The notes under the pieces: generated by a model
The model's database searches: none
What the model was told of the DNA's origin: nothing
What the model saw: the letters and a program-made list of their open reading frames with translations, nothing else
Made by a program: the position numbers and the translations under genes
Assembly (NCBI GenBank): GCA_002410715.1
Contig: DHOG01000198.1
Span: 4,672-14,369 of the forward strand
Direction: 5' to 3'
DNA length: 9,698 nt
DNA from: Ruminococcaceae bacterium UBA5396
GTDB taxonomy: Bacteria; Bacillota; Clostridia; Oscillospirales; Acutalibacteraceae
In this document: piece after piece, positions 1 through 9,588 of the stretch
Layout of the letters: the number at the start of each line of letters is the position of its first letter
Position numbering within the stretch: position 1 is the first letter of the stretch

Positions 1-307
1 AGGTCTTGCCGCCGCCGATGCCGATCACAACATCGGGTGCGTAGTCCCTGATGCTGTCCGAAATTGCCTTGACGCGCTGCGCGGAGCATTCGGCCTCGTA
101 CTGGCAGGTTTTGATTGTGGAATCCGTGCCTGCAAAGCCCTTCTCCAGCCGGGCGGTCATGTCTTTATAGAAGAACGGGTCGATAACGGCAAACGCTTTC
201 TTGCCAAACATTTTTGTGTAATTTTGGAGATTGTCGATCTCTCCGGGGCCCTGGTAATACTTGGATGGCGAACACCATCCCCTGGTTGTTCTTGTTACTT
301 TTGTCAT
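1..307 (-). CDS. gldA: GldA-family glycerol dehydrogenase, partial (C-terminal part outside window)
   Basis: The first 102 residues of an iron/zinc-dependent polyol dehydrogenase of the glycerol dehydrogenase type, which oxidises glycerol to dihydroxyacetone with NAD+ in the cytoplasm. Visible are the N-terminal KYYQGPGEI segment, the AVIDPFFYKD strand and, at the cut edge, the GIGGGKT dinucleotide-binding turn. The ATG at 305-307 is chosen because AAAGGAG lies 10 nt upstream. About 75 of the 102 residues match the complete paralogue at 619-1773, so this is a tandem duplicate. A terminator and about 310 non-coding bases separate the two, and a good promoter lies at 409-437, so this copy is probably transcribed on its own. 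The metal ligands lie outside the window. The exact substrate (glycerol or another vicinal diol) cannot be told from the sequence. Confidence 0.9.
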   Translation of the reverse strand, partial: MTKVTRTTRGWCSPSKYYQGPGEIDNLQNYTKMFGKKAFAVIDPFFYKDMTARLEKGFAGTDSTIKTCQYEAECSAQRVKAISDSIRDYAPDVVIGIGGGKT

Positions 308-6142: not shown

Positions 6143-6376
6143 GTGAAAATCAAGAACATTACAGAACCTCAAAAGTTCTTTGAAGTTCTCAAGGACTGCA
6201 AAGGTAAGGTGGAACTTGTGACTTCGGAGGGCGACAGGCTTAACCTCAAGTCGACACTGTGCCAGTATATTGCGCTGACGCAGATGTTTAAGGATGCTCA
6301 AATTGACGAGCTGGACCTGGTGGTTTCCGAGCCGGAAGATCTGAATCTTTTGCTGAATTATCTGGTAAGAGGATAA
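6143..6376 (+). CDS. Conserved small protein of unknown function (77 residues)
   Basis: A compact acidic/basic protein with no signal peptide, membrane segment or cysteine pair. Notable parts are KITEPQKFFEV-like text near the start (KNITEPQKFFEVL), the central strand pattern GKVELVTSEGDRLNLKS, and a C-terminal PEDLNLLLNYLVRG. It resembles a small family I recall as widespread in Clostridia, often carrying the automatic and probably meaningless label 'polya polymerase'; I cannot verify this here. The GTG start at 6143 is well supported by TAGGAGG 9 nt upstream. It has its own promoters, a terminator right behind it, and coding-like composition throughout, so it is a real gene. The function is not known; proximity to the cyclase does not prove a link. 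Confidence 0.85.
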   Translation: MKIKNITEPQKFFEVLKDCKGKVELVTSEGDRLNLKSTLCQYIALTQMFKDAQIDELDLVVSEPEDLNLLLNYLVRG

Positions 6377-6394
6377 CATCTTCTAAGAATTGAG

Positions 6395-6430
6395 GTCATG
6401 GTTTACGTATGTAGACCGTGACTTTTTTTT
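6395..6430 (+). terminator. Rho-independent terminator of the 77-residue protein gene
   Basis: GTCATGGT (6395-6402) pairs with ACCGTGAC (6415-6422), 8 bp with one G-T wobble, followed at once by eight T (6423-6430). Confidence 0.85.
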
Positions 6431-6609
6431 GCTGTCATGTTCACGAGACGAAAGTCGAGTGGTTAGCATGACGCATGCAAGGCTTTCCCGAGAACCGAGC
6501 GCTCTTTGCGAAGGTGATTGGCTGAAAGCTACTGCGGCAGTCATGTCCGCAAGCCATTTGCTGTATCAATACACACAATAAAAAACGGACGCCTTTATCA
6601 GGCGTCCGT
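6431..6609 (+). ncRNA. Candidate plus-strand structured RNA of unknown class
   Basis: About 180 nt with no usable reading frame but ordered structure. GTCATG (6434-6439) pairs with CATGAC (6467-6472). Inside that, CAC/GTG, a tandem GA/GA step and GAC/GTC close a GAAA tetraloop (6442-6461); the tetraloop and GA pairs exist only on the plus strand. GGCTTTC (6481-6487) can pair with GAAAGCT (6524-6530). GCGG and CCGC form a further hairpin (6534-6550). The region ends in the hairpin 6585-6609. It starts directly after a terminator and I see no good promoter, so it could depend on read-through. It does not match the motifs I know for T-box, c-di-GMP, SAM, TPP, FMN or cobalamin RNAs. Confidence 0.4.
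6580..6609 (-). terminator. Strong terminator, possibly bidirectional
   Basis: A perfect 9-bp stem, ACGGACGCC (6585-6593) with GGCGTCCGT (6601-6609), and a 7-nt loop. On the minus strand six T follow the stem directly, ending the large RNA. On the plus strand the stem is followed by AAATGTTTTT, a weaker version that could end the plus-strand element. Confidence 0.88.
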
Positions 6610-7210
6610 AAATGTTTTTCTTAAATTCTTAATATTCTTTGATCAGATCGTCATCACACATTTTACCGATGCATCGGGTCATGCGTCCCCCTGTCGGTTC
6701 TCGCCGACCACCCTACAATATGCAGCTTAATTTATATTATATTTGCATACCGCCAGGCACTTCCTGCAACGTATTTTTGCATTCGGACCGCTCTGGCTAC
6801 ACGGAAATCAATAACACTCTCATTTGCGGATTTACGCCCCGCTCAGGCTTACTTGTGTGATTGATTCCACCGGGTACCATCCAACTCTTCTTTACGACCT
6901 GGAAAACCCTGCCGCGAATCTTTTTACCATTCACCATTACGGTATATACAAATTGTACAAAACCATTTCTGCTTTTAGTAAAACCTGCCCGTAATCCCTA
7001 AATCATACACAAGTCTTTATTCAGAGTGTCACCGTGCATCCCAAAGAATATCGTTTCACTTATATCCATCGGCATCACGTCCCTTCGTCTGAATTTGAGA
7101 CCTTTCCCCAGGCCACATGCCCGCCGTCCGGTCTCATCCGGTCTGATACTATTTATATAACCTTATCATCAGCCGGTTAAACATTTACCCAAAACAATCA
7201 TATGGATATC
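6580..7210 (-). ncRNA. Candidate large structured noncoding RNA, about 630 nt
   Basis: Between a minus-strand promoter (7217-7244) and terminator (6580-6609) no frame longer than about 25 codons has a plausible start, yet complementary segments are abundant and mostly nested: 7143-7147/7168-7172; 7096-7102/7130-7136 (7 bp); 7019-7025/7088-7094 (7 bp) enclosing 7033-7036/7076-7079 and 7046-7051/7062-7067; 6852-6858/7007-7013 plus 6862-6866/7001-7005 (12 bp, 140 nt apart) enclosing 6936-6942/6989-6995; 6752-6756/6793-6797 enclosing 6765-6769/6777-6781; 6719-6724/6744-6749; 6693-6697/6704-6708; and the palindrome 6666-6677. One helix needs a G-U pair that exists only on the minus strand. Length, many stems and a tRNA/integrase setting recall the ornate large RNAs ROOL and GOLLD, but I cannot recognise either by sequence. 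It could be a new class or a diverged member. Confidence 0.6.
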
Positions 7211-7216
7211 TGTCTT

Positions 7217-7244
7217 ACTATAATAATTCTACATCGATTGCCAA
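7217..7244 (-). promoter_or_regulatory. Sigma-A promoter for the large noncoding RNA
   Basis: On the minus strand: -35 TTGGCA (7239-7244), a 16-bp spacer, and -10 TATAGT (7217-7222), each one base from consensus. The expected start is near 7210. A second, weaker candidate (TTAACC-17-TATAAA, -10 at 7152-7157) would give a shorter RNA of about 565 nt. Confidence 0.65.
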
Positions 7245-7299: not shown

Positions 7300-7323
7300 A
7301 GCGAAAGGCCATCGTATAGGAAT

Positions 7324-7360
7324 GCTGCTATAGCTCAGTAGGGCGGGCGCGTCATTGGTA
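7324..7360 (+). pseudogene. tRNA-Thr 5'-half remnant, copy 1
   Basis: It matches a tRNA-Thr from the acceptor strand GCTGCTA through the D-arm to the anticodon loop TTGGTA, then diverges at once. The D-stem is kept only with a G-U pair. The anticodon stem has no partner, and the T-arm and 3' acceptor strand are missing. Confidence 0.7.
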
Positions 7361-7500
7361 TATTTGGGTCTCGGGGTTGCGGAACGAGCGCGCCCGGTGG
7401 GCGATGAAGCGAGAGGAGCAACCATTGAGCATGAGGCGATGCTGACCGAGCTTGCGGCGGGATAGCAGAGGTCATAGCGAAGTGGGAACCCGAGCCGGAA
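7345..7500 (+). other. GC-rich multi-helix insert between the two tRNA half copies
   Basis: The segment is much richer in GC than its surroundings. It folds on paper as a closed multi-branch structure: CTCGGG (7370-7375) with CCCGAG (7489-7494), extended by GG/CC; GTTGC (7376-7380) with GCAAC (7418-7422), enclosing CGCCC/GGGCG (7391-7395/7399-7403); AGCAT/ATGCT (7428-7432/7439-7443); and TGACC/GGTCA (7443-7447/7470-7474), which shares one base with the previous stem. It would be transcribed from the promoter at 7271-7299. I do not recognise it as a group I or II intron, riboswitch or known RNA. Confidence 0.45.
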
Positions 7501-7525
7501 GCGTGTTGGAAGAAATTGAATATGT

Positions 7526-7565
<40 letters not shown>

Positions 7566-7596
7566 TAGTGCTCTAATACGTAAAAAATTTAATAAT

Positions 7597-7672
7597 GCTC
7601 TCGTAGCTCAGTCGGTAGAGCGCATCCTTGGTAAGGATGAGGTAGGCAGTTCGATTCTGCTCGAGAGCTCCA
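7597..7672 (+). tRNA. tRNA-Thr (anticodon GGT), CCA encoded
   Basis: A full cloverleaf. Acceptor stem GCTCTCG (7597-7603) pairs with CGAGAGC (7662-7668). The D-arm is GCTC/GAGC, the anticodon stem CATCC/GGATG with loop TTGGTAA, and the T-arm has loop TTCGATT. Discriminator T is followed by CCA (7670-7672). It reads ACC and ACU codons. It is the last gene of the plus-strand unit and the likely attachment gene for the integrated element to its right. Confidence 0.97.
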
Positions 7673-7852: not shown

Positions 7853-9292
7853 TCACTGCAATGCGGGTATTTTATTGAGACTCTCATAGATTTTCTCGGC
7901 AAGCTCCGGAGTATGGGATAACTGTTCAAATAGCTTCATCATACTAAAATCAGATTCGCTTTCCGGACAGTCTTCTTTTCCATAGAAATCTCCTTCAACC
8001 AAAGCCGACAATCTGCGACGATCTGTTTCCATAACCTCGTCATAATGGTCAAGCATTGTGGCGGCTGATGTGTGTCCGGTTTCTCCGCTCACCGATTGCA
8101 AATCATAATTCGTCAATCGGAGTTTATACATGGTCGCGGATTTACGGACACCTTGCATATCTACCATATCATTTTCCTCGAACCCTTGCTCAGCTTGCCA
8201 CTTCTTAAAATACTTGTCCATTCTTCTTGGCTCTATTGGATCGCCGTTTGGCCAACACAAGAGCAGACCATAATCGTGGTACTCGGAACCAAAATATTCC
8301 TTGTCTCTTTCAATTTGTGCCATTCTATTTGATATTTCTTTCTGCAAATAGCCGTTTAAAAAACCAGTACGCTCACTTTCATCAGTCTTTGGTTTTTTTA
8401 GGATTAGCACAGTTTTTGCATTCATTTTCTTTTTGGGGAATATTCTTATGATATCCTCATGTGATACCTCATTCAGCGAATCTTCTTCCACTCTCTGCAA
8501 AGTTTGTTTTACCCATAATGTTCTGTTTGATAATTCGATACTATGAATATCCACGCCAACGGTTTCTCCTGGGCGCAACGAACAAATAAAAGCGAGATGA
8601 ACAGCCAAATGGAGCAGAGGTTCGGCTATATTGTCAATCGCAAATAACATTTGCTCCTTTGTCCAATATTTACGCTTCTCATACCGTATTGTAGGCGCTT
8701 GATCCTTACTGACAGGACTTCTAGCAGTATAGCCCCATGCCTCAGCATCTCTGAAAGCAGGACTTATGACATTAAAAGATTTCATTATGGTGCTTCCCTT
8801 CAATGTCGGAATATCTTCTTCCTGCTTATGATAGCTTTTAGGGCCTTTGCATTTCTTCAAGCTCATTTGATGAACCCACTCATCAATATCTTCGGCTGTG
8901 ATTTTACTGACGATTTTATCTCCAAAAAAAGGTTCAATGTGGTTCCTTATATTGGCTTTCATTTGTCCGTAGGGCGCTGGTTTCATCCGTACCTTGCGAG
9001 CGTGTCGCGGCATCCACATCCAAATGAATTCTGAAAATGTCTTCTTCATATTTTCGTTTTTTGAATTATGGACACACTTTTTCCCGTTCTTGTTTTCATT
9101 GTACTCATTCACCAGCTTTAACAAAGTCACATTATCTTTGTTGTCACGCAAGAAATCAATAACTTTTGCTCTTTGTTCCGCTTCTTCCATAGTATCGTAT
9201 GCTTCATATTGTTGCCGGCTGACGCCTTGCTCATCAGAATAGTAATAGATGAACGTAAACTTCTTTCCTCTTGATTTAATTGTAATTGCCAT
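7853..9292 (-). CDS. int: Tyrosine recombinase / integrase
   Basis: A 479-residue phage-type site-specific recombinase. The N-terminal arm-binding-like region is about 1-75. A core-binding SAM-like domain is about 83-200 (TFSEFIWMWMPRHARK; NHIEPFFGDKIVSKITAEDI). The catalytic domain is about 205-430. Visible active-site residues are R240 (SLRPGE), a beta-hairpin lysine near 299-302, R383 (QGVRKS), H407 (ETGHTS) and nucleophile Y417 (LDHYDE). The usual first histidine of the HxxR box is Gln (Q380). A tail of about 50 residues follows the catalytic domain. AGAGG 7 nt before the ATG supports the start. It follows the excisionase-like gene by 17 bp in one operon and points at the tRNA-Thr, where it presumably integrates and excises the element. 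Confidence 0.95.
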   Translation of the reverse strand: MAITIKSRGKKFTFIYYYSDEQGVSRQQYEAYDTMEEAEQRAKVIDFLRDNKDNVTLLKLVNEYNENKNGKKCVHNSKNENMKKTFSEFIWMWMPRHARKVRMKPAPYGQMKANIRNHIEPFFGDKIVSKITAEDIDEWVHQMSLKKCKGPKSYHKQEEDIPTLKGSTIMKSFNVISPAFRDAEAWGYTARSPVSKDQAPTIRYEKRKYWTKEQMLFAIDNIAEPLLHLAVHLAFICSLRPGETVGVDIHSIELSNRTLWVKQTLQRVEEDSLNEVSHEDIIRIFPKKKMNAKTVLILKKPKTDESERTGFLNGYLQKEISNRMAQIERDKEYFGSEYHDYGLLLCWPNGDPIEPRRMDKYFKKWQAEQGFEENDMVDMQGVRKSATMYKLRLTNYDLQSVSGETGHTSAATMLDHYDEVMETDRRRLSALVEGDFYGKEDCPESESDFSMMKLFEQLSHTPELAEKIYESLNKIPALQ

Positions 9293-9309: not shown

Positions 9310-9507
9310 TTAGATATCGGCCACAACACCGTTATATGGCATCCACTTATCAAAGGATTCTTTGTTTATACGAATACTGCGCGGCCCAACATGGTGAACT
9401 TGAAATTGATCCGTATTCTTGCAAAATTCGTATGCGGTGCGTGGCTTCATATTTAGCATTTGTGCAACTTGCTCCACAGTATAGACGCGCGAAGAAAAGT
9501 TATCCAT
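9310..9507 (-). CDS. Excisionase-like helix-turn-helix protein
   Basis: A 65-residue MerR/excisionase-type DNA-binding protein: VYTVEQVAQMLNMKPRTAYEFCK forms the helix-turn-helix (about 8-30), followed by a wing (VGPRSIRINKES) and FDKWM, as in many Xis and 'helix-turn-helix domain 17' proteins. It probably bends attachment-site DNA and directs the recombinase towards excision. The ATG at 9505-9507 has AAAGGA 9 nt upstream. Longer in-frame forms exist: an ATG at 9531, and a TTG near 9555 preceded by GGGGGTG, which may be an alternative start. The recombinase gene follows after 17 bp. It could instead be a small regulator of the element. Confidence 0.82.
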   Translation of the reverse strand: MDNFSSRVYTVEQVAQMLNMKPRTAYEFCKNTDQFQVHHVGPRSIRINKESFDKWMPYNGVVADI

Positions 9508-9588
9508 ATTAGCACTTCCTTTCTTTCGCATGGCAACTTTGTCCCGTAGCAAACAGCACCCCCTTTCATAATATGATGGTGCCTTAAG

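Follow-up and report, generated by a model that had tools for sequence, protein, structure and literature searches.

The window, i.e., the whole stretch of 9698 nucleotides that was analysed, carries a candidate RNA gene on its minus strand and, divergent from it, a tRNA-Thr(GGT) gene, the 3' end of which faces an integrase gene (Table 1). Two truncated 5' halves of tRNA-Thr (7323-7369 and 7523-7570) stand ahead of the intact tRNA. An excisionase-like HTH gene (9310-9519) lies behind the integrase, and further past it (L076) are ORFs that we take to be an IS110-type transposase and the start of a DNA methyltransferase. Tandem glycerol dehydrogenase genes (window 1-307 and 619-1800, L075 3645-4700) are 72-76% alike. 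The contig that holds the window (G000:C59; 17,903 bases) has runs of N inside genes, which suggest scaffolding joints or masking.

Table 1. Features of the RNA locus and its neighbours, in window coordinates. Partner segments of helices are joined by "with".
Feature	Position	Strand	Details
Structured RNA	6580-7225	-	Eight homologues aligned (A6); covariation, terminator and -10 element common to homologues
TTGGCA	7239-7244	-	Upstream hexamer of promoter-like pair
-10-like element TAGAAT	7226-7231	-	In 7/8 homologues; GAGAAT in G806
Second hexamer TATAGT	7217-7222	-	Follows TAGAAT
Hairpin P2	7096-7137	-	P2a, TGAGACC 7130-7136 with GGTCTCA 7096-7102; P2b, 7119-7123 with 7109-7113
Shine-Dalgarno-like CGAAGGGA	7080-7087	-	GAAAGGG in most homologues
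Hairpin P3, around ORF start codon	7036-7080	-	7076-7080 with 7036-7040; 7063-7072 with 7042-7052
Short ORF	6998-7069	-	23 codons in the window, 17 in the other seven: MDISETIFFGMHGDTLNKDLCMI
P4, outer helix of the first-pass annotation	6852-7013	-	Window ACTTGTGT with ACACAAGT
P5, inner helix of the first-pass annotation	6937-6994	-	6989-6994 with 6937-6942
P7	6763-6767 with 6753-6757	-	Weaker: 82.5% paired, 1/5 pairs with changes on both sides
P8	6745-6752 with 6716-6723	-	95.3% paired, 6/8 pairs with changes on both sides
P9 and conserved 3' motif GGCGAGAACCGACAGGGGGACGCATGACC	6677-6709	-	6702-6709 with 6677-6685
P1, possible long-range pairing	6668-7076	-	GATGCC 7071-7076 with 6668-6672
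Intrinsic terminator hairpin	6585-6609	-	10 bp, 7 GC, T-run; usable in both directions
tRNA-Thr(GGT)	7597-7672	+	Divergent neighbour of RNA; 3' end faces integrase
Integrase	7853-9292		Faces tRNA-Thr 3' end

The first-pass annotation, made from this sequence alone, had described 6580-7210 as a candidate large noncoding RNA with a near-consensus promoter and a strong terminator on the minus strand. The terminator was confirmed; its hairpin also scores on the plus strand, and the homologues described below have terminator hairpins at the same place, that of G821 being without a good T-run. The promoter-like pair TTGGCA-16-TATAGT (7244-7217, minus strand, 10/12) is indeed present, but such sites are no commoner in that stretch than in shuffled sequence (four found against 3.2 expected). 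In six of the eight homologues TTGCA occurs 17 nt upstream of the -10 element; it is absent from the window and G821. The predicted transcript would be about 630 nt long, starting near 7219 and ending in the T-run of the terminator. The annotation's statement that the region encodes no credible long protein held, as a Pfam search of eight frames returned one insignificant match (E 0.27, plus strand). The longest minus-strand frame of the RNA (66 codons) has too few words in common with any protein for homologue detection. A decayed gene was considered and rejected: two minus-strand frames are without a credible family, and the longer of them has no homologue.

Searches of the genomes to which the window is assigned as a relative were negative. 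Besides the window itself, two short matches (29-45 bases), judged to be chance, were obtained both in 60 genomes of its assigned relatives and in 398 genomes of the family (two candidates scored per genome). The GGDEF, small-ORF and glycerol dehydrogenase genes of the contig have no close orthologue in the G000 genus, and a comparison of the GGDEF protein with genome contigs gave nothing but distant GGDEF matches. The best match of the glycerol dehydrogenase outside G000 among 391 class genomes was in G571 (51%), so the family of that genome (f74) was searched, which led to the homologues of the RNA: blastn with the window against its 18 genomes gave clear matches. We discarded the other blastn matches in this family, most of which span 20-60 bases near the 5' end of the query and do not touch the RNA. 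The contig seems to be misbinned, judging from its genes without orthologues in the genus and from an RNA that matches the Christensenella family, and an RNA family on such a contig may escape notice as long as searches are confined to the wrong relatives.

The homologue set comprises only eight sequences, from about three clusters of related genomes. One is the window itself, six come from genus g224, and the last is that of G821, a member of the sister genus g375. We infer that g224 is Christensenella and that the window and G821 stand near that genus; Christensenella are gut bacteria studied for a link to leanness. A model of the 3' domain of seven sequences (R1), from whose training G806 was left out, was run against 396 genomes of the order with the stricter filters for large searches and gave matches in 12 of them at E 0.05 or better. 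Seven of these are real (E 7.8e-26 or better) and correspond to the six genomes of g224 and G821, and G806, outside the training set, scored 96.6 bits. The five remaining matches (18.8-22.3 bits) are without the motif, and four further matches of 15.3-18 bits in G810, G813 and G814 were judged to be chance by score alone. A second model (R2) was built from all eight homologues, and its seven strong matches follow from this construction. In G820, R2 gave a match of 24.4 bits within an apparent coding sequence, where R1 is silent, and R2 matches of 18.7-22 bits in G571, G807 and G497 were dropped, one of them after inspection of the alignment. Since such weak matches reach E 0.001, the E-values are rough. 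Neither model found anything convincing in the 11 remaining family genomes. The RNA family is narrow: besides the window, it occurs in all six Christensenella genomes, one of two genomes of g375 and none of ten from three other genera, several of the negative genomes being just 69-85% complete.

In the full-length alignment of the eight sequences (A6), six helices comprise 38 pairs, and 92.4% of 302 cells are paired. Changes on both sides were found in 18 of the 38 pairs, and 0/500 shuffles reached either the pairing or the change count. With slid partners 31-39% of cells were paired, a control in which the A6 structure is favoured because it was drawn partly from the tested sequences. The alignment of the 5' domain (A7), which adds P2 and P3, has 84.9% of its cells paired and 14 of 29 pairs compensated (0/500 shuffles), with 25-48% paired in the slid-partner controls. 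Five measures of pairing were taken, of which the number of further pair types did not exceed that of shuffles (85/500 as high for A6, 83/500 for the 5' domain). These homologues and compensatory changes back the proposal that the minus strand encodes a large structured RNA, and the minus strand of 6580-7225 is almost certainly a member of a real structured RNA family.

The two helices singled out by the first-pass annotation fared differently. P5, which the annotation proposed from one sequence when no homologues had yet been identified, is paired in 100% of cells in the eight sequences, with changes on both sides in three of six pairs; of the 7-bp helix originally drawn (6936-6942 with 6989-6995), these six pairs are kept in 8/8 sequences, but the seventh is lost in 6/8. 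The 12-bp helix (6852-6866 with 7001-7013; P4) is conserved in part: 8 bp remain in the window and, with compensated letters, 7 bp in G821, but none of the other six homologues has more than 4-5 bp. In P9, 96.8% of cells are paired, three of eight pairs show changes on both sides and five are invariant; the region of the 3' motif was seen by blastn in six genomes. Within the 5' domain, 90% of the cells of P2b are paired and four of its five pairs have changes on both sides. P2a forms with 4-7 bp in seven of the eight homologues, its arms differing in sequence between them; those of G497 escaped automated detection. The two parts of P3 are paired in 92.5% and 86.3% of cells, with one and three pairs changed on both sides, respectively, and P3 is not formed in the local minimum-energy fold of G821. 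The possible long-range pairing P1 (85.1% of cells paired, one compensated pair) is energetically not special, and a switch between P1 and P3 was set aside, as the energies give it no support.

The folding energy of the region is low. The minus strand of 6580-7210 without the terminator has a z-score of -4.25 (0/100 shuffles as low), and in 8/8 homologues the folding energy lies under that of all 60 shuffles (z -2.2 to -7.5). The signal is strongest in the central 175 nt (z -4.29, 0/300 shuffles as low), followed by the 190-nt 5' part (z -2.21, 9/300), while the 231-nt 3' part of the window RNA is ordinary (z -1.39, 36/300). However, the strand opposite the RNA folds nearly equally well (z -3.67), and among 62 windows of 400 nt the two lowest values elsewhere in the sequence were -3.64 and, antisense to a coding gene, -3.46. 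The plus-strand window 6301-6700, which overlaps the region and holds two terminator hairpins, reached -6.74. Since other windows come to about -3.6 by chance and the opposite strand also folds well, folding energy alone is only suggestive.

The word noncoding has become doubtful, for one 17-codon ORF inside the RNA is conserved. Its ATG is present in 8/8 homologues, with the same stop column in 7/8; the window has lost one base immediately ahead of the common stop, so that its frame ends at codon 24, and apart from this deletion the alignment has no gap inside the ORF. Among the six start columns common to at least six of the eight rows, just two have a stop in common (7 rows), and both are in the frame of the ORF. 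The Shine-Dalgarno-like GAAAGGG comes first, followed by the motif GTGATRCCR and then the ATG; when the homologues are folded locally, the Shine-Dalgarno-like stretch stays largely unpaired in seven and is paired in G821. The score for protein-like substitution was 0.85 against 0.10 for shuffled columns (11/2000 as high). However, this test also gave 0.61 and 0.68 for two antisense frames, and as the ORF overlaps a conserved hairpin, structure alone might mimic a coding signal. The ORF is short, and the encoded peptide varies much between homologues. Weighing these points, we lean towards the ORF being translated. An ATG is also invariant in the 3' motif (A6 columns 690-745; window 6650-6700), where it is preceded by GGGGGA and in four genomes starts a frame of 13 codons; as a second ORF it was rejected, its commonest stop being common to 3/8 rows only.

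The genome neighbourhood indicates that the RNA belongs to the chromosome. The tRNA-Thr(GGT) stands divergent beside the RNA in 7/8 loci (window, G821, G808, G809, G806, G571 and G807), separated from it by three ORFs in G571 and G807, and this tRNA is absent from the 10-kb stretch taken around the RNA copy of G497. An integrase faces the 3' end of this tRNA in 4/8 loci (window, G571, G808 and G806), and the first 70 residues of the integrase ORF in G806 are identical to those of the G571 ORF. As the integrase stands at the 3' end of the tRNA and the RNA on the other side, the tRNA is the integration site, and the RNA is its chromosomal neighbour and not cargo. A comparison of the first 70 residues of each ORF gave no downstream gene common to all loci read, so the RNA is not the leader of one fixed gene; G571 and G807 both have a DEAD-box helicase gene downstream (Pfam on the G571 copy). 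In G808 and G809 the interval from the RNA to the tRNA contains fragments similar to the truncated tRNA halves of the window, as if left by repeated integration.

A dual-function regulator, i.e., an RNA that encodes a peptide and also acts through a regulatory fold, fits best with a stand-alone gene in which separate transcription signals flank a conserved fold and the start codon of a short ORF is covered. We regard this reading as our best guess, with a probability of roughly 50%. The conserved RNA structure that it presupposes was found in the covariation of both A6 and A7. One predicted promoter would give rise to an RNA that encodes the 17-codon peptide and acts through its fold. With the start codon inside P3 and the Shine-Dalgarno-like stretch mostly unpaired, opening of P3 could gate translation, and the 3' two-thirds of the molecule (P4, P5, P7, P8, P9 and the conserved loops) might bind a partner, be it a protein, a target RNA or a second molecule of the RNA itself. 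The gene is a chromosomal one beside tRNA-Thr rather than the cargo of an inserted element. It may even be, although the odds fall slightly short of even, the first known case of a new ornate RNA class, a Christensenella molecule that is folded scaffold and gated micro-gene at once, with a hairpin concealing the start codon for the 17-residue peptide that it encodes.

The main rival is a purely structural, noncoding ornate RNA that works in the style of ROOL or GOLLD, perhaps by self-assembly, and in which the ORF is a by-product of P3. The many covarying helices and conserved loops, the size of about 600 nt, the overlap of the ORF with P3 and the antisense frames that also score in the coding test all suit it. 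However, it leaves the conservation of the ORF's start and stop, matched by no other start, and the Shine-Dalgarno-like stretch upstream without a reason, and we consider the odds to be rather against it. The opposite view, that of a long messenger for a tiny peptide, the structure of which merely controls stability or translation, accounts for the conserved ORF, the Shine-Dalgarno-like sequence and the terminator. It is improbable, as the 3' motif, which is among the most conserved stretches, and several covarying helices extend up to about 300 nt past the ORF, and an mRNA for 17 codons needs no such downstream structure.

A diverged copy of ROOL, GOLLD, OLE, tmRNA or another known RNA, the first two of which the annotation had offered as relatives, would be in keeping with the size and with the tRNA and integrase nearby. 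At the thresholds of Rfam 15, however, the window and eight loci matched nothing except tRNA, so none of these families, ROOL, GOLLD and OLE included, is detectable, and the idea is refuted at the sensitivity of Rfam. Down to E 10 the window matched three families (E 1.3-8.8), two of them at the terminator, and three loci down to E 1 gave few matches to other families, all far below threshold. An identity with tmRNA was rejected, as a separate tmRNA is present in 7/7 genomes and RF00023 is unmatched by the RNA itself. The suggested setting in phage-derived DNA found no support either: seen from the tRNA, the RNA is on the side of the chromosome, outside the element, and a search of phage and plasmid records at E 0.01 was negative. 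Neither of two patterns of the 3' motif is present exactly in the IMG/VR viral contigs. The 5' motif occurs exactly in five viral sequences, which were discarded; they have no R1 score, and with R2 one locus reached 13.8 bits, elsewhere in the locus. A known RNA is thus a very improbable explanation.

Comparison with particular large RNAs shows both likenesses and differences. ROOL and GOLLD are carried by phages and prophages and form an RNA-only nanocage, OLE (Ornate Large Extremophilic) RNA is about 600 nt long and has the gene of an associated protein beside it, and Staphylococcus aureus RNAIII is a dual-function RNA of about 500-600 nt with its own terminator and a short ORF in its 5' part. 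The Christensenella RNA resembles OLE in being large, stand-alone and structured, but it has no Rfam match and no downstream gene common to all loci read here, and we know of no counterpart of the 17-codon ORF in OLE. With RNAIII it shares the size of about 500-600 nt, the structure, the own terminator and the position of the short ORF, but it has no Rfam match, the peptide is unrelated, and no agr-type neighbours were noticed in reading through the ORFs of the loci; as a regulator it would resemble RNAIII without being its relative. Its likeness to ROOL and GOLLD lies in the size class, the many nested helices, the stand-alone gene and the nearby tRNA. According to PMC12286853, those RNAs often occur near tRNA islands, whereas a single tRNA-Thr stands near the Christensenella RNA, which is not prophage-borne. 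It further differs from them in that it has no Rfam match, is chromosomal, occurs in all six genomes of one genus, lies outside the inserted element and has a conserved short ORF, and no phage or plasmid copy was found. The 520-nt lncRNA of Ligilactobacillus salivarius, identified as a ROOL RNA in PMC12286853, is likewise a narrowly distributed large RNA of a gut commensal and has no defined function (PMC5643018), but it lies on a megaplasmid and not on a chromosome, and no ROOL match was obtained here.

Lastly, a decayed remnant of a gene or mobile element, structured in appearance only, would be at home in an integration hotspot with broken tRNA copies, but it has no protein homologue and is refuted by the compensatory changes in eight genomes, which makes it the least probable explanation of all.

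As far as Rfam 15 and the literature searches go, the RNA of 6580-7225 is supported as a new class, the alternative that the first-pass annotation had placed beside a diverged relative. Among the listed open-access papers that combine Christensenella with noncoding RNA, small RNA or Rfam, no title or abstract beginning describes such an RNA. The main text of the C. minuta genome paper reports noncoding RNAs annotated with RNAmmer and Rfam and names none (PMC5256218), and the word Christensenella is absent from the main text of two genome-wide ncRNA surveys (PMC11109978, PMC8632094). The RNA would be a new regulatory RNA of Christensenella, for which an own transcription unit is predicted. All six Christensenella genomes examined carry it, and the carriers probably include a cultured strain, so it can be tested at the bench. 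To our knowledge, bacteria have only a small number of large structured RNAs, and for most of these no function has been established; an ornate fold with a gated tiny ORF, if true, would connect ornate RNAs with dual-function regulators.

A separate element lies next to the RNA gene on the plus strand (6427-6580), with the core CATGCAAGGCTTTCCC...CGATTGGCTGAAAGCTACTGCG. It occurs at nine places in G820 and, in a weaker form, at one in G807, where it stands upstream of what is presumably the start of a 23S rRNA, and so appears to be a multi-copy intergenic element of the family. Its part between the terminators folds modestly (z -2.64, 4/300 shuffles as low).
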